Positions 3,760 through 15,108 of a DNA stretch of 35,242 bases are shown in pieces. Position numbers and translations under genes: made by a program. The stretch comes from an uncultured Oscillospiraceae bacterium. Lineage in GTDB: Bacteria; Bacillota; Clostridia; Oscillospirales; Oscillospiraceae. The stretch's first letter is position 1. Every line of letters starts with the position of its first letter. Below the pieces are notes generated by a model. The model was not told the DNA's origin, searched no databases, and saw only the letters and a program-made list of their open reading frames with translations. The stretch spans positions 1 through 35,242 of the forward strand of contig CANRLF010000020.1 in NCBI GenBank assembly GCA_947631395.1, given 5' to 3'.

Positions 3760-6004
3760 CGCCGTCACCGCCCAATAAGCTCAGCTGTTGCTCCTCCCGG
3801 TCCTCGTCCCGTAGGAGCGCCCCGGCGGCGGGTATGGAGCGCACCCGGTAGCGCCCGGCGTTTTTCACGCTCGTCTCCTCAAGCCGCCTGAGCTCCGTCA
3901 CGGTCCGCTGGCGCTTTAAGGTCACCACCGCCACGCCCTGTGTGTTCTTCGTGGGCTTTGGCGTCAGGAGCGCCGTGGAGAACACCAGGCACCGCCCGTC
4001 CGACGTATACGCCGCCGCCTCAAAGTCCTCGAACACCGGCAGGAACCCAATGAGGGGGCTCTTGTCTGAGTACGCCCCCGTCAGCTTCTTCCTGTTCGTC
4101 TTTGTCTCAAATCCCGAAAGCTGTATCCTCGCGGCCTTGCCGTTTTCGAACATCAGTAGCAGGCTCCCCCTGTAATCCCCGGGGTCGCAGATGTATATGG
4201 CGTTCTCCCCGTCCTCCATCTTCAGCTGTGTTGGCACATATGTGCCCAGGCTCGACGCCTTAGCGTCCGGGAAATCCGAAAGCCGCGTCTTATAGCACTG
4301 GTATCTGTCCGTGAACACCAGAAGCTCCGAGGAGTTCTTCGCCTCGAAGGAGCATTGAAGGCCGTCGCCCTCCTTATATTTCTGCTCCCCGCTCATGCGA
4401 AGCGACTGGGCCGTTATCTTCTTCAGATACCCGCCTTTTGAGAAGAACACCGTCACCTGATAGTCGTCCTCCGGCTCCTCCTCGGGCTCCGGTATCTCGT
4501 GGGCGTACACTATGCCCGTTTTCCGGGGCTCCGCGTATTTCTTGATGACGTTCTCCAGCTCGCTTTTTATGATGGATTTCACCCGGCGGCGGTTTTTCAG
4601 CACGTCCTCAAGGTCCGCGATCTCCGCCTCCAGCTTCTCTATGTCCTCCAGGCGCTTCAGGATATACTCCTTATTTATGTTGCGCAGCTTTATCTCCGCC
4701 ACGAACTCCGCCTGTATCTCGTCGATCCCGAAGCCGATCATCAGGTTCGGGACCACCTCCCGCTCCTCCTCGGTCCCCCGGATTATGGCGATGGCCTTGT
4801 CTATATCCAGCAGTATCTTCCCCAGGCCCCTCAGAAGGTGCAGTCTGTCCTTTTTCTTCGTAAGGTCCGCGAACACCCTGCGGCGTACCGACTCCTCCCG
4901 CCAGGCTGTCCACTCGCTCAGTATCTCCCTGACCCCCATGACCCTCGGCGTCCCGGCGATCAGGATATTGAAGTTACACGCGAAGGCGTCCTGAAGCGGC
5001 GTCAGCCTCATCAGCTTCGCCATAAGCTTCTCCGGGTCCACGCCCCGCTTTAAGTCCACCGTCAGCTTCAGGCCCGTCAGGTCCGTCTCGTCGCGCATAT
5101 CCGAGATCTCCCTGAGCTTCCCGGTCTTGACCAGCTCCTCCACCTTGTCCATCACGGCCTCCGCCGTGGTGGTGTAGGGTATCTCGTATATCTCGATTAG
5201 GTTCTCCTTTTTGTCGTATCTCCACCGGGCCCTGAGCTTCACGCTCCCGCGCCCCGTCTCGTATACCTCCCTCAACGCCTGTGGCTCGTATATCACCTCG
5301 CCCCCGGTGGGGAAGTCCGGCGCCCTGAGGGTCGCCATTATGTCGCAGTCCGGGTCCGACAGATACTCTATCTCCGTCCGGCAGACCTCCTCCAAGTTAA
5401 AGGAGCATATGTTCGAGGCCATGCCCACGGCTATGCCCGTGTTGGCGGATACCAGCACGTTCGGGAAGGTGGTGGGAAGCAGCGACGGCTCCTTCATTGT
5501 GGCGTCGTAGTTGTCCACGAAGTCCACGGTGTCCGAGTCGATGTCCCGGAAAAGCTCCGCGCAGATGGACGAGAGCTTCGCCTCCGTGTACCTGGACGCC
5601 GCGTAGGACATATCTCTGGAGTACACCTTGCCGAAGTTGCCCTTTGAGTCCACAAAGGGCGTCAGAAGCGCCTGATACCCCTTTGACAGCCGCACCATCG
5701 TCTCATATATCGCCGCGTCCCCGTGTGGATTTAGCCGCATGGTCTGCCCCACGATGTTGGCGGACTTCGTCCTCCCCCCTGTGAGGAGCCCCATCTTGTA
5801 CATCGTATACAGAAGCTTCCTGTGCGCCGGCTTGAACCCGTCGATCTCCGGTATGGCCCTGGATACGATGACGGACATAGCGTAGGGCATATAGTTCACC
5901 TCAAGGGTGTCCGTGATCTCCTGATCCTGCACCTGCGCGTGCAGCCCCATCACATTAGGATTATTGACCTTCTTCACATTCTCTTCAGATTTTTTCTTAG
6001 CCAT
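3752..6004 (-). CDS. parC: Type IIA topoisomerase A subunit (topoisomerase IV ParC-like)
   Basis: DNA breakage-reunion subunit of a type IIA topoisomerase, partner of the B subunit at 7628-9613. It is 750 aa. The active-site Tyr is Tyr139 in AASRYTEAKLS. The winged-helix region contains the conserved HGD motif at 94-96. The coiled tower and primary dimer region reach about 480, followed by a beta-strand-rich C-terminal domain (about 505-720) without a GyrA-box (QRRGGKG), which favours a ParC-like rather than a gyrase role. At the positions equivalent to Ser83 and Asp87 of E. coli GyrA it has Ala97 and Glu101. The ATG at 6004 follows AGGA. The gene is separated from its B subunit by the two serine dehydratase genes. 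Calling it ParC rather than a second GyrA is inference. Confidence 0.9.
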   Translation of the reverse strand: MAKKKSEENVKKVNNPNVMGLHAQVQDQEITDTLEVNYMPYAMSVIVSRAIPEIDGFKPAHRKLLYTMYKMGLLTGGRTKSANIVGQTMRLNPHGDAAIYETMVRLSKGYQALLTPFVDSKGNFGKVYSRDMSYAASRYTEAKLSSICAELFRDIDSDTVDFVDNYDATMKEPSLLPTTFPNVLVSANTGIAVGMASNICSFNLEEVCRTEIEYLSDPDCDIMATLRAPDFPTGGEVIYEPQALREVYETGRGSVKLRARWRYDKKENLIEIYEIPYTTTAEAVMDKVEELVKTGKLREISDMRDETDLTGLKLTVDLKRGVDPEKLMAKLMRLTPLQDAFACNFNILIAGTPRVMGVREILSEWTAWREESVRRRVFADLTKKKDRLHLLRGLGKILLDIDKAIAIIRGTEEEREVVPNLMIGFGIDEIQAEFVAEIKLRNINKEYILKRLEDIEKLEAEIADLEDVLKNRRRVKSIIKSELENVIKKYAEPRKTGIVYAHEIPEPEEEPEDDYQVTVFFSKGGYLKKITAQSLRMSGEQKYKEGDGLQCSFEAKNSSELLVFTDRYQCYKTRLSDFPDAKASSLGTYVPTQLKMEDGENAIYICDPGDYRGSLLLMFENGKAARIQLSGFETKTNRKKLTGAYSDKSPLIGFLPVFEDFEAAAYTSDGRCLVFSTALLTPKPTKNTQGVAVVTLKRQRTVTELRRLEETSVKNAGRYRVRSIPAAGALLRDEDREEQQLSLLGGDGDE

Positions 6005-10306: not shown

Positions 10307-11053
10307 TTGCAGATTGCGTTATGCGACGATGAAAAAACATGCCACGAAACGATAAGAGACCTGATCGGACAGTACAAGCAGGCCAACCCTGACCGTTCGC
10401 TCATGCTGTCGTCCTTCCATTCCGGGAAGGAGCTTTTGAACCATGTGGACGAATACGGCGGCTTCGACCTCTATATCCTCGACTGCATCATGCCGGAGAT
10501 GGACGGCATAGAGCTTGGAACGGCGTTGCGCGGCCGTGGCGATCAGGGGATGTTCATCTATCTGACCACATCTCCCGACTTCGCGCTGGACTCCTACCGG
10601 GTGGACGCCCTCGATTACCTCTTAAAGCCTGTGGACAAGCCCCTCTTCTTTCGGAGTCTGGACAAAGCGTTCTCCTCCCTTTCCCGGATCACGCGGGATA
10701 TGGTCTCCGTCAAGACCGCTGACAGTACCCGTATCCTTCCCGTTGCCGACATCCGGTACGCGGAGCGCACCGGAAAACGGATCTACTACTATATGGCGGA
10801 TGGCGGTATCATACCCGGCGTTACCTTCAACGGCTCCTTTATTGACGCGGTATCAGATCTCCTCTCCCATACCGGTATGCTCCTTGTGGGCTCCTCATTC
10901 GTGGTAAACCTGTCCCATGTCACGGAAGTAACGAAAACGGACATGGTCCTGACGGGAAACCTTCGCGTCCCCATCCCGCGCCGCATATATGACGCCGTGA
11001 AGCGTGAGTGGGCGGCCTTCTGGCTGAACGGAGGAAAATACCGTGCTTTTTGA
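10307..11053 (+). CDS. LytTR-family response regulator (AgrA-like)
   Basis: Cytoplasmic two-component regulator, 248 aa from the proposed TTG start. The receiver domain (1 to about 120) has acidic residues in CDDE, the phospho-acceptor Asp59 in LYILDCIMPEMDG and the conserved Lys in LLKPVDK. A LytTR DNA-binding domain covers about 140-245. The TTG at 10307 is chosen because the receiver fold begins right there (QIALCDDE) and a GGGG site lies 7 bases upstream; the same frame stays open for 68 more codons, but that part is not receiver-like. Two AgrC-like kinases follow, the first overlapping by 11 bp. The targets are unknown; the convergent CstA transporter gene is one candidate, as LytTR systems control CstA-family pyruvate transporters in enterobacteria. 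Confidence 0.9.
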   Translation: MQIALCDDEKTCHETIRDLIGQYKQANPDRSLMLSSFHSGKELLNHVDEYGGFDLYILDCIMPEMDGIELGTALRGRGDQGMFIYLTTSPDFALDSYRVDALDYLLKPVDKPLFFRSLDKAFSSLSRITRDMVSVKTADSTRILPVADIRYAERTGKRIYYYMADGGIIPGVTFNGSFIDAVSDLLSHTGMLLVGSSFVVNLSHVTEVTKTDMVLTGNLRVPIPRRIYDAVKREWAAFWLNGGKYRAF

Positions 11054-12350
11054 GGATAACCTTACTTTTTTGGTCCTGAAGGTCCTGATCACCTTTGTGG
11101 GCACGATCTCCATGATGGTGTCCACCACCAGCTTTAAGATAATCCAAAAGAAAGCGGTGTTCGCCGCGGTCATTTTGGTCTATGGCGTTTACGTCATCCT
11201 CTCCACCCTTTTGATTATTTATTATTTTGGTTACCAGCGTTTCCTGTGGGTCTTTGTCCTTACCATATCATGCCCGACGGTCCTTCTTTTGCGCAATATC
11301 TCTGACGAGCCGTTCGCGAAGCTCGTATTTACCGGCGCGACACATATCCTGGCCTCCCTTTACATCGCCGCCACAGTCACCCTGGTGAATACCGCCTTGC
11401 GCGGAAACGAGCTGTCAGACATCCTGTTGCGCCTGCTTTCCTATCTGCTTGCGGCGCTGTTTGATTTTCACTTTGTCAGGCATATTTGGCTCGATTTCGT
11501 CGGCATGATCAAAAAGGGCTGGGGCGTCCTTTCCCTGATCCCCTGCGCGTTCATCGTCCTCTCCGTGACAGTCGCCCTTTACCCGGAGCATTATACGAAA
11601 CGGCCGCTCAGCATCGTCACGGTCTACCTGCTGGGTGCCGTCATCATTGCCGTCTACTTTTCCATCGGAAGCTACCTGTACCTGCAATACAGCAGACTGC
11701 GCTCAAAGCAGAACAAGGAGATTTTGGAGCTCCAGCTGGAAAACATACGGCGTGAAAACTCCGACATCGACGCTCTTGAAAAGCAGACGAAGATCATCCG
11801 CCACGACCTGCGTCACATCCTCTCCACGGTCGCCACCCTCGCGGAAAGCGGCGATACCCGGGCGATCCTTGATTTTGTTGAAAACACCGCTGAGCTGTCC
11901 GAGGATGTCCCAGCGCCCCTTAAGTATTGCGGCGATCCCATTCTTGACGCCACCCTTTCCGGTTACCTTACGTCCGCGATGGATGCGGGCATCGAGCTTG
12001 AGACCTCCCTTTCCATCCCGAACGTCCTTCCTGTGGACTCCTCCGAGCTCTCCGTCTGCTTTGCCAATATGCTGGAAACCGCCATCCGCGCCTGTATGGA
12101 GCTTCCCGAGGGTGAAAGGAAGCTGAGCGTCCGGTGCGTCCAAGAGCCTAATATGATGCTTGAGGTCACTTATCCCTGTGATGGCAGCATACCGCTTGAT
12201 AAAAAAGGCCTTCCACAGCCGCCGGACGGAGGTCTAAACAGTAGCTTCCGCTCCATAGCGTCATTCTGTGAAAGGCACAACGCCGTCTATTCGTTTACGG
12301 CCGATAATAACCTGTTCCGGATCTCGGTGACATTGCGGGGCCGCTCTTGA
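11043..12350 (+). CDS. AgrC-like sensor histidine kinase with degenerate ATPase domain
   Basis: 435-aa membrane protein. Residues 1-212 contain six or seven hydrophobic segments, followed by a coiled dimerisation helix (about 215-255). The H-box IIRHDLRHIL has the phospho-accepting His254. The C-terminal GHKL domain (about 325-430) is aberrant. The N-box reads NMLETA, with Thr346 where the Mg/ATP-binding Asn belongs; the next Asn is Tyr377 (VTYPC); the glycine lid normally read as GxGIG is DGGLNSSF (395-402). ATP binding is therefore doubtful, while His254 could still accept a phosphate from another kinase. The GTG at 11043 has GGAGGA upstream. The next gene is its paralogue with the opposite pattern of loss. 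Confidence 0.85.
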   Translation: MLFEDNLTFLVLKVLITFVGTISMMVSTTSFKIIQKKAVFAAVILVYGVYVILSTLLIIYYFGYQRFLWVFVLTISCPTVLLLRNISDEPFAKLVFTGATHILASLYIAATVTLVNTALRGNELSDILLRLLSYLLAALFDFHFVRHIWLDFVGMIKKGWGVLSLIPCAFIVLSVTVALYPEHYTKRPLSIVTVYLLGAVIIAVYFSIGSYLYLQYSRLRSKQNKEILELQLENIRRENSDIDALEKQTKIIRHDLRHILSTVATLAESGDTRAILDFVENTAELSEDVPAPLKYCGDPILDATLSGYLTSAMDAGIELETSLSIPNVLPVDSSELSVCFANMLETAIRACMELPEGERKLSVRCVQEPNMMLEVTYPCDGSIPLDKKGLPQPPDGGLNSSFRSIASFCERHNAVYSFTADNNLFRISVTLRGRS

Positions 12351-12387
12351 CCGTATCATCCCAGCGTACATAGAAAGGAGGCAAGGC

Positions 12388-13674
12388 ATGATTTTTGATA
12401 ACAATACCGCGTACCAGATATACCGGATCCTTGTTTCCATCTTCGGCACCCTCGGCATGGTCGTTTCCGTCAGCAGGATAAAGGAAAACAAGAAGAAAAA
12501 TCTGCTTATCGTCATCGGATACGCTGTCTACTCCATCGCCTTTTCCGTCCTCTGTATACGGTTTTTCGGCTTCATGCCCTTTCTCCGCGGCGCCATATTC
12601 ACCGTTTCCATACCCGGAGTCATCATAACCTTCCTGATCGCGGACGAGTCCCTTTCAAGGCATATCTTCTGTTGCCTGTCACAGCTTCTCATGTCCCTTT
12701 ACCTTATCGTCAGCGTGACTCAGCTCAACACGCTGTTCGGCGGCAACTCTTTGACAGATCCCCTGCTGCTCCTTTCCGCATACCTCATAGTGATTTTACT
12801 GGATGTTTTCTTCCTTCGAAATATCTTCCTGAATATCGCGGACACGGTCACCGGCGGCTGGTGGATACTCGCCCTGATCCCCTGCTCTTTTTTCATATTT
12901 ACCATAGTGCTCGCCCTCTACCCGGCCCATTATACCCAGAACGCCTCATTTTCCGTCCTCTTCGCCCTGTCAGGCGCCGTCCTCCTCATCATCTACTATG
13001 CCATCTTCCAATATCTGCGCCTCCAGTACCGGTACCGTATGGAGGAGCAGGACCGCGACCTTTTAAGGTTGCAGATAGGCAACATCAGAAGCAAGGCCAA
13101 GGACGCCGAGCGGCGTGCGCGGGACGTGAGGGACGCCCGGCGTAACATCCGGCAGATACTGTCCGCTGTCGCCGGACTTGCGAAAGACGGGAACACCGAA
13201 GCTATACTTGACTACATAAAAGAAGCGTCCGTCCGAACCGACACCCCCACGCCTGCCCGCTACTGCTCGGACCCCATCTTAAACGCCACTCTCGCCACGT
13301 ATTTCGCCCGCGCTGAGCGTTCCGGCATTGCCGTGGAGCAGAGGCTCTCCCTCCCCGAAACACTGCCCGTCGATTGCGCCGAGCTTGCGATCTGCTTCTC
13401 CAACGCTCTTGAAAACGCCATAAACGCCTGTGAAAAGCTCCCGGAAAATCAGCGGAAGATCGTCATCCGTTGCGTCCATAAGCCGCGGTTCATGTTCGAG
13501 ATAAAAAACTCCTGCCGCGGACGTATCTCATTCGGCCGTAATGGGCTCCCGCAATCGCGCAAGCCCGGCCACGGCATCGGCGCCCGCTCCATCGTGGCTT
13601 TCTGCGAAAAGCATAACGCCTTTTATTCGTTCAGCGCGGAGGACGGCTGGTTCAAGCTCGTCATCACGTTATGA
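12388..13674 (+). CDS. AgrC-like kinase paralogue lacking the phospho-acceptor His
   Basis: 428-aa paralogue of the preceding kinase, alignable from end to end, with the same multi-spanning N-terminus (about 10-212) and shared phrases such as ALYPxHYT and YCxDPILxAT. The ATPase domain is intact: N-box NALENA with Asn343, Asn374 in IKNSC and glycine lid GHGIGARS (394-401). In the H-box position the sequence is ARRNIRQIL, so Arg252 replaces His and Asn253 the following Asp; it cannot phosphorylate itself there. It may phosphorylate His254 of its partner within a heterodimer. The ATG at 12388 has AAAGGAGG 7 bases upstream and lies 37 bp after the first kinase. Its stop overlaps the stop of the convergent cstA-like gene by 6 bp (TTATGA). 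Confidence 0.87.
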   Translation: MIFDNNTAYQIYRILVSIFGTLGMVVSVSRIKENKKKNLLIVIGYAVYSIAFSVLCIRFFGFMPFLRGAIFTVSIPGVIITFLIADESLSRHIFCCLSQLLMSLYLIVSVTQLNTLFGGNSLTDPLLLLSAYLIVILLDVFFLRNIFLNIADTVTGGWWILALIPCSFFIFTIVLALYPAHYTQNASFSVLFALSGAVLLIIYYAIFQYLRLQYRYRMEEQDRDLLRLQIGNIRSKAKDAERRARDVRDARRNIRQILSAVAGLAKDGNTEAILDYIKEASVRTDTPTPARYCSDPILNATLATYFARAERSGIAVEQRLSLPETLPVDCAELAICFSNALENAINACEKLPENQRKIVIRCVHKPRFMFEIKNSCRGRISFGRNGLPQSRKPGHGIGARSIVAFCEKHNAFYSFSAEDGWFKLVITL

Positions 13675-15108
13675 GATCTTATGCTCTTTCGCCCGTCCCC
13701 AGCGGATCATATAAATCAGGAATACAATAAGCAACGCGACCGACGCCGCGATGCCCGCCGGATAGGCTATTTTCGTGGAGAGCCTGAAGCCCTCGCCCGC
13801 CATGAGTATGTAAGTGACCGAGACCGCGCTCATAAATGTTGCCGGTACCGCTGAGATCAGCGAGTACCATTCTTTTTTTGCGTTTTGGACCAGATACACC
13901 GCCATCGCCCACAGCACGATCATAGCCAGCGTCTGATTGGACCAGGAAAAATACCGCCATATGATGTCAAAATCGATCTGCGTCAAAACAGCCGCCGTTC
14001 CTATCAGCGGGACCGCTAAAATAAGCCTTTTCCAAAGGCTCGACTGATCCAGCTTCAGCCAGTCCGCAAGCGTAAGCCGCGCGCTCCGAAACGCCGTGTC
14101 CCCCGTGGAGATCGGGCAGACGACAACTCCGATGACAGCCAGCGCCCCGCCGACCTTTCCGAGCACTCCCACGGAAATATCATAGACAACTCCCGACTGG
14201 CCGAGGGACGCCAGAGCCCCCGACAGATCCTTTGTATTGCCGTAAAACCCCAGGCCCGCCGCCGCCCACACCAGGGCGATCACGGCCTCCGCCAGCATCG
14301 CGCCGTAAAAGATCGCGCGTCCCTGCTTCTCGCTCTCTATGCACCTTGCCATCATCGGCGACTGGGTGGAATGAAAGCCCGACACCGCGCCGCAGGCCAC
14401 CGTTACAAACATATATGCCCATATCGGCTTCCCCTCCGGGTGCAGGTTGGCAAATGTCTCGCTTGTGAGCTCCGGGAGCGTATAGTCCCCGAAAATAAGG
14501 CCGCCGGCTATCCCCGCCGCCATAAACATGAGCACCACGCCGAACACTGGATATAGCTTTCCTATCACCTTGTCAATGGGCAGGAGCGTCGCCAGCACAT
14601 AATACGCCATTATCACCACGATCCAGAATGTGGTATCCATAAAACCCGGCGTAAGCCTCGCCAGGAGCCCCGCCGGGCTTGTGGTAAATACCGCCCCCAC
14701 GCATACGAGCAGTACGATCGAAAAAATACGCATGACCTGTTTTGCCGCGGTGCCCAGATACTTCCCGACGATCTCCGATATGGACGCGCCGTCATTCCTT
14801 ACGGACGCCATCCCGGACAGATAATCATGGACGGCCCCGCCAAGTATGGAGCCGCACACGATCCACAGGAACACCACCGGTCCGAATACCGCCCCCATCA
14901 GCGGCCCGAATATCGGCCCCGTTCCCGCTATATTGAGAAGCTGGATCAAAAACACCCGCCATTTCTTCATGGGCGTAAAGTCCACCCCATCCGGATGCGC
15001 TATCGCCGGCGTGGGATCGTCGCTTGGCGCGACGATCCTCTCAACTACGCGCCCATATACCTGGTATCCCACGAGCAAAATAAGCAACGCTACAATAAAT
15101 GTGATCAT
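13669..15108 (-). CDS. cstA: CstA-family carbon starvation/pyruvate transporter
   Basis: 479-aa integral membrane protein of the CstA family, with many hydrophobic segments. Family-typical stretches include NIAGTGPIFGPLMGAVFGP near 60-80, SGFHSTQSP near 245 and PISTGDTAFRSARL near 330. Characterised members (E. coli CstA and BtsT) import pyruvate or peptides; which applies here is unknown. The ATG at 15108 follows GGAGATAAAA. It is the last gene of a long co-directional minus-strand run, 109 bp after the purine permease. It ends convergently in the second AgrC-like kinase gene with no hairpin between, so read-through antisense transcripts are possible. Confidence 0.93.
   Translation of the reverse strand: MITFIVALLILLVGYQVYGRVVERIVAPSDDPTPAIAHPDGVDFTPMKKWRVFLIQLLNIAGTGPIFGPLMGAVFGPVVFLWIVCGSILGGAVHDYLSGMASVRNDGASISEIVGKYLGTAAKQVMRIFSIVLLVCVGAVFTTSPAGLLARLTPGFMDTTFWIVVIMAYYVLATLLPIDKVIGKLYPVFGVVLMFMAAGIAGGLIFGDYTLPELTSETFANLHPEGKPIWAYMFVTVACGAVSGFHSTQSPMMARCIESEKQGRAIFYGAMLAEAVIALVWAAAGLGFYGNTKDLSGALASLGQSGVVYDISVGVLGKVGGALAVIGVVVCPISTGDTAFRSARLTLADWLKLDQSSLWKRLILAVPLIGTAAVLTQIDFDIIWRYFSWSNQTLAMIVLWAMAVYLVQNAKKEWYSLISAVPATFMSAVSVTYILMAGEGFRLSTKIAYPAGIAASVALLIVFLIYMIRWGRAKEHKIS

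Follow-up and report, generated by a model that had tools for sequence, protein, structure and literature searches.

Reciprocal losses in two tandem AgrC-like kinases suggest a split histidine kinase in an uncultured Oscillospiraceae bacterium and its relatives

How might a two-component system signal when neither of its sensor kinases appears to be complete? The question is raised by three genes of an uncultured Oscillospiraceae bacterium (contig CANRLF010000020.1 of GenBank assembly GCA_947631395.1, positions 1 to 35,242; this whole stretch of 35,242 nucleotides is called the window below), in which a LytTR response regulator is followed by two AgrC-like histidine kinases, K1 and K2. An earlier note on this DNA had proposed that the kinases arose by duplication, that each copy then lost one half-function, and that only a heterodimer would signal. 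Our comparison of 12 such cassettes suggests that K1 and K2 are probably one obligate split AgrC-like histidine kinase. In this model, the DHp helices would hold the two proteins together as a dimer in which K2, through its ATPase domain, would phosphorylate K1 in trans at His254; phosphorylated K1 would then act as the phosphate donor for the LytTR regulator. Autophosphorylation by either protein alone is not expected, given that the ATP site of K1 is incomplete and K2 has no acceptor histidine. The cassette and the residues at issue lie in the window as follows:

10307..11053, + strand: LytTR response regulator; TTG start; Pfam Response_reg 1.6e-13, LytTR 1.1e-5
11043..12350, + strand: kinase 1 (K1); GTG start, 435 amino acids; polytopic membrane domain, DHp helix, degenerate ATPase domain
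11802..11804, + strand: codon CAC of the K1 phospho-acceptor His254, within RHDLRH (alignment position 254)
11907..12335, + strand: ATPase (CA) domain of K1, residues 289-431; Thr346, Tyr377, lid lacking two of its three glycines
12388..13674, + strand: kinase 2 (K2); ATG start, 428 amino acids; polytopic membrane domain, DHp helix, intact ATPase domain
13141..13143, + strand: codon CGT of K2 Arg252, at the phospho-acceptor column of the alignment
13243..13671, + strand: ATPase domain of K2, residues 286-428; NALENA, Asn374, GHGIG

The 5' end of K1 overlaps the 3' end of the regulator gene by 11 bases. The receiver of the regulator precedes its LytTR DNA-binding domain, and its phospho-acceptor aspartate presumably lies within LDCIMPEMDG, an assignment we make from knowledge of the family. 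K1 and K2 are 40% identical (173/431 columns, E 6e-123); the membrane part and the DHp helix region are each at 37% identity and the ATPase domain at 48%. The Pfam family HATPase_c_5 matches K2 at 3.9e-15 and K1 at 6.8e-4, the latter under the curated cut-off; among the ten members of each scanned, all K2 matched, as did five K1 at E <= 0.01.

The regulator, K1 and K2 stand side by side in all 12 systems, comprising that of the window and those of 11 other genomes. A scan of species genomes yielded nine further loci (L036-L044), each with the same gene order and with 76-84% (K1), 77-84% (K2) and 85-89% (regulator) identity to the window. In the window itself, K1 has His254 in RHDLRH, Thr346 in the N-box, Tyr377 and GGLNSSF at the lid, while K2 has Arg252 at the histidine column and intact NALENA, Asn374 and GHGIG; alignment confirmed these residues as the earlier note had listed them. 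Across the 12 systems, K1 always has the phospho-acceptor histidine, and K2 never has histidine at that column (Arg in 11, Gln in one), has no other histidine in its DHp region (11/12 scanned) and always keeps the three ATP-site asparagines. The ten full-length K1 proteins have all lost asparagine at the 377 column (Tyr in seven, Phe in two, Cys in one); Asn346 is lost in six and kept in four, Asn342 is lost in one, and at least one lid glycine is lost in nine. A lid pattern flagged the K1 of L040 and L042, and alignment placed all three glycines only in L040.

The set of K1 defects therefore varies between systems, and the outcome is always a K1 that lacks a complete ATP site. The expectation that the losses would be conserved in relatives was borne out for the K2 histidine (12/12) and the Asn377 column of K1 (10/10) but not for Asn346 or the lid, so that neither Thr346 nor lid loss, both initially counted as K1 defects, holds across the cassettes. 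No protein in any of the 12 systems, K1 or K2, combines an acceptor histidine with a complete ATP site; the two sit on different proteins throughout, and a search of the 12 cassettes for orthologues that would contradict the split, either a K1 whose ATP site is complete or a K2 that has the histidine, returned none. K1 and K2 are both relatives of AgrC, and neither is a complete kinase. One K1 (L044, 5899-7032) lacks about 54 residues of the membrane part, corresponding to window residues 36-89, and keeps the histidine and the remainder of the protein; the gap is either a natural deletion or an assembly error.

Related kinases provide a measure of how unusual this pattern is. As controls served the other related kinases of the loci, which had been retrieved for their best matches, so that the sampling was not random. 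A first set of 81 kinase-like open reading frames gave 70 rows (20 K1/K2 and 50 others) after removal of duplicates and short matches; a wider set of 192 open reading frames gave 90 distinct sequences (23 K1/K2 and 67 others), from which the K2 of one short-K1 genome (G830, described below) had been removed as a near-copy and was read separately. The acceptor histidine is kept in all 67 controls, asparagine occupies the 346 column in 66/66 and the 377 column in 65/65 of those with letters there, and the gaps are a fragment with no ATP domain in frame (L064) and a kinase without the Asn377 segment (L083_145); for the lid, L004 was not aligned and L003 was not matched by the pattern. Set against 67/67, the absence of the histidine from K2 in 12/12 indicates that the reciprocal loss is real and not a product of chance.

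The proposed history of duplication followed by reciprocal loss was likewise upheld. A maximum-likelihood tree was built from 70 kinases, leaving out the two short K1 proteins described below; in it, K1 (10 sequences), K2 (10) and K1 plus K2 (20) each formed one group with 100/100 support. Four loci (L045-L048) hold tandem regulator-kinase-kinase sets with the same kind of regulator and with both kinases intact, and a further genome (G392, locus L083, G392:C270) has three tandem related kinases with the histidine in all three. Given this tree and these intact outgroups, one duplication of an intact kinase and subsequent reciprocal loss would be the simplest history. The first kinase of L083 keeps its histidine and has no segment around the Asn377 column; it is perhaps an early stage of a similar division of labour.

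The strongest support for a heterodimer comes from two genomes in which K1 has no ATPase domain at all. G680, from another family, was found among 394 genomes of the order, and G830 among 71 genomes of G680's genus. In both, K1 has 294 amino acids and ends at residue 294, directly after the DHp hairpin; K2 is complete and starts 64 bases past the K1 stop. Between these genomes, the ratio of nonsynonymous to synonymous substitution rates (dN/dS) is 0.109 for K1, at a synonymous rate (dS) of 0.195, and 0.060 for both K2 and the regulator. The low K1 value implies that selection maintains a protein consisting of a membrane domain and a histidine-bearing hairpin. Standing beside a K2 that has an ATPase domain and no acceptor histidine, this short K1 is what chiefly supports the obligate heterodimer of the earlier note, and the evidence that the kinase domain of the histidine-bearing partner is dispensable is comparative and comes from these two of the 12 systems.

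The short K1 would also suffice if K1 were no substrate of K2 and served instead as a phosphatase, or as a DHp-only phosphotransfer protein, for the regulator, with phosphate drawn from another kinase or a small phosphodonor and with K2 as an accessory ATPase that controls K1. DHp domains are able to dephosphorylate regulators in two-component systems, and the genome encodes at least four other related kinases. Under such an arrangement, the K2 ATP site kept in all 12 systems would have nothing to phosphorylate, and the acceptor histidine that K1 always carries would be deprived of its nearest donor. The arrangement also sits poorly with the adjacency and co-occurrence of K1 and K2 across the genomes searched; we consider it improbable.

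Patterns of selection follow the proposed division of functions. Median dN/dS over 45 genome pairs, from simple pairwise estimates on pairs that are not independent of one another, was 0.166 for the DHp region, 0.266 for the CA domain and 0.24 for the membrane part of K1, compared with 0.191, 0.162 and 0.22, respectively, for K2 and 0.134 for the regulator. In each protein, the half whose function is retained is under the tighter constraint, clearly so in K1 and slightly so in K2. The CA domain of K1 is just slightly looser than its membrane part, and the membrane domains of both kinases are under purifying selection. Ordinary degeneration, with K1 as a decaying pseudogene copy and K2 as a variant kinase, could explain why, of all parts measured, the CA domain of K1 has the highest dN/dS, and why it is deleted in two species. 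We find this explanation hardly credible, given the constraint on the K1 DHp region and on the short K1, the open reading frames that are retained in all 12 systems, and a K2 that should not function alone without the histidine. A pseudogene status for K1 was rejected on its dN/dS and conserved histidine.

The distribution of the cassette suggests that its genes are inherited together. In the window's own genus, the complete pair is present in six of 34 genomes, the window's included, and in the genome searches any genome with a near orthologue of one kinase also had the other, apart from a relic in G020, a sibling species of the same genus. There (locus L063, G020:C21:22000-31000, about 4140-4640, - strand), the sequence appears by eye to pass from the regulator's end and the K1 start straight into the last third of K2, near the apparent cstA end. 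Neither a regulator-like nor a K1-like frame turned up at this G020 locus, and hence none of the three genes is intact there. This joint loss bears on whether K1 and K2 might instead be homodimers with separate roles, K2 as a pseudokinase-like sensor and K1 as a decoy, encoded by two independent genes whose drift happened to leave them complementary. That both genes are under purifying selection in every domain is compatible with such roles, and the heterodimer is itself proposed from sequence. Nevertheless, neither homodimer should autophosphorylate, none of the three genes has survived intact in the sibling species, and drift would leave unexplained an identical complementary pattern in 12/12 systems when 67/67 relatives keep the histidine. 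We therefore regard separate homodimers as very unlikely.

The cassette may also have travelled. Identity between the regulator of the window and its counterparts in G680 and G967 is 87%, compared with 70% for a fragment of RpoB between the same genomes (dS 0.6-0.7 for the regulator versus 1.3-1.8 for the RpoB fragment), which indicates horizontal spread between families; a comparison with RpoB of G512 (26% identity, evidently in the wrong frame) was set aside, and G152 gave no RpoB match. These values point to movement of the cassette as one unit. A search of plasmids returned two records with distant kinases, none reaching 80% query coverage. The nine loci L036-L044 all come from records labelled Lapin, which is French for rabbit, and are therefore probably from rabbit gut; the hosts of the cassette are uncultured, probably gut-dwelling bacteria.

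Structural comparison links both kinases to AgrC of Staphylococcus aureus, a class 10 histidine kinase. AgrC was the best structural match for both CA domains (4bxi, 6e52, 6e95), which have an AgrC-type fold, and K1 aligns to AgrC without gaps from the histidine through the hairpin loop in a weak PDB sequence match (E 0.098), so that the hairpin is of equal length around the histidine; a PDB sequence search with K2 gave matches at chance level only. AgrC differs in having both half-functions in one protein, which acts as a homodimer. Hairpin handedness is reported to determine whether transfer occurs in cis or in trans (Ashenberg et al. 2013, as cited in PMC5956149), and cross-phosphorylation between AgrC tails has been described (PMC3673130). 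On this similarity, phosphorylation of K1 would be expected to occur in trans. Net charge over helix 213-250 ranges from -2 to +1 in K1 and from +1 to +5 in K2 and is lower in K1 in all ten pairs, a contrast that has no control and is only suggestive of hetero-pairing. The full-length models have mean predicted local distance difference test (pLDDT) scores of 59.5 and 68.6 overall and are weak in the membrane part, and for that reason no sensing mechanism was read from them.

Several points weigh against an obligate K1-K2 heterodimer. The obligate pairing is inferred from sequence comparison. The retention of Asn346 in four of ten K1 proteins, and of all lid glycines in one, might leave K1 with residual nucleotide binding. 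The proposed trans geometry depends on a resemblance to AgrC seen in the weak sequence match, and the DHp model has a pLDDT of 63-69. Another cellular kinase could in principle phosphorylate K1, given the at least four related kinases already mentioned. Finally, the CA domain of K1 is still under purifying selection in the full-length systems, a role that falls outside a split-kinase model; in these ten of the 12 systems, the domain may serve to hold the regulator or the partner in place.

ComE-like regulators are of the LytTR type. The nearest known system that we found, FasBCA of Streptococcus pyogenes, combines two AgrC-like kinases, FasB and FasC, each with six predicted transmembrane segments, and a ComE-like regulator, FasA (Baral et al. 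2025, PMC12675982). In that system, the kinase domain comes from FasB, whose membrane part is not required; FasC depends on H246 and remains functional when its own kinase domain is absent, and two-hybrid assays detected FasB-FasC pairs and no homodimers of either protein. By analogy, K1 would correspond mechanistically to FasC and K2 to FasB. For the AND-type sensor suggested in the earlier note, the evidence points neither way: purifying selection acts on the membrane domains of both K1 and K2, but FasB can do without its own. All 12 cassettes share with fas the two adjacent AgrC-like kinases and the LytTR-type regulator, and the natural 294-residue K1 of G680 and G830 resembles the engineered FasC 1-286. 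In contrast, the FasB DHp region retains histidines whereas that of K2 has none, and the regulator gene is first in the K1/K2 cassette and last in fas. The intact outgroups of K1 and K2 suggest that their split arose separately.

Other paired kinases are less similar. CheA3 and CheA4 of Rhodobacter sphaeroides form a split kinase predicted to allow ultrasensitive switching; they form a complex, and neither autophosphorylates alone (Amin et al. 2013, PMC3591291). As proposed for K1 and K2, ATP binding and the phospho-acceptor are on two proteins, but these belong to the CheA family of chemotaxis and have lost whole domains (P1 in CheA4, P3 and P4 in CheA3), whereas K1 and K2 are membrane sensors that can be aligned throughout in ten of 12 systems. 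RetS and GacS of Pseudomonas aeruginosa also form a heterodimer of two sensor kinases, yet RetS inhibits GacS, both also homodimerise, and there is no obligate complementarity (PMC12189002, PMC12675982). A description of the K1/K2 cassette was not found in the open-access literature searched, which is weak evidence of absence.

The neighbourhood of the cassette offers one possible target:

13669..15108, - strand: CstA-family transporter gene, convergent neighbour of K2; Pfam CstA 1.7e-54

A pattern search placed a CstA-like start near the cassette in 8 of the 11 loci given. In L112, L119 and L039, the next long minus-strand frame after K2 is 5'-nucleotidase-like, not CstA-like; since this gene takes its place there, cstA is not an obligatory neighbour. 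To the eye, a short tail at window:15123-15266 looks like the terminal part of the 5'-nucleotidase gene that follows the kinases in L038 and L039, and it is probably a remnant of that gene. Upstream of the regulator, a TTGACA -35 element with a TAAAAT or TATAAT -10 element was seen by eye in six of ten loci (L037, L038, L039, L040, L041 and L044). Inspection by eye of the aligned upstream regions of the regulator and cstA gave no convincing shared LytTR site; a motif search was not run. Further downstream, a single frame of 1135 amino acids (window:16661-20068) combines an ABC ATPase with a permease domain and two solute-binding matches, amounting to a one-protein ABC transporter of the amino-acid type. 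A frame of 953 amino acids (window:20070-22931), in which a SpoIIE phosphatase and an HATPase domain accompany a 5TMR-LYT membrane domain, is a receptor-joined phosphatase switch.

Taken together, the evidence leans, with some reservation, towards a fuller history in which a duplicated AgrC-type kinase split into acceptor and ATPase subunits independently of FasBC, the acceptor was stripped in one lineage to a membrane sensor and a bare histidine hairpin, the three genes spread between families as a unit, and the resulting receptor may combine two membrane inputs. Paired and split kinases are already known from FasBC and CheA3/CheA4; the K1/K2 cassette is a variant with mutually complementary losses. 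Its two cytoplasmic fragments and one regulator make a small, soluble system in which the question of a split can be tested, and it carries a warning for annotation, as a kinase scored as degenerate may be half of a functional pair. The stages from intact tandem kinases through reciprocal point losses to loss of a whole domain form a natural series, a route from a homodimeric receptor kinase to an obligate heterodimer, and K1/K2 together with FasBC suggest that the AgrC class is prone to such splitting.

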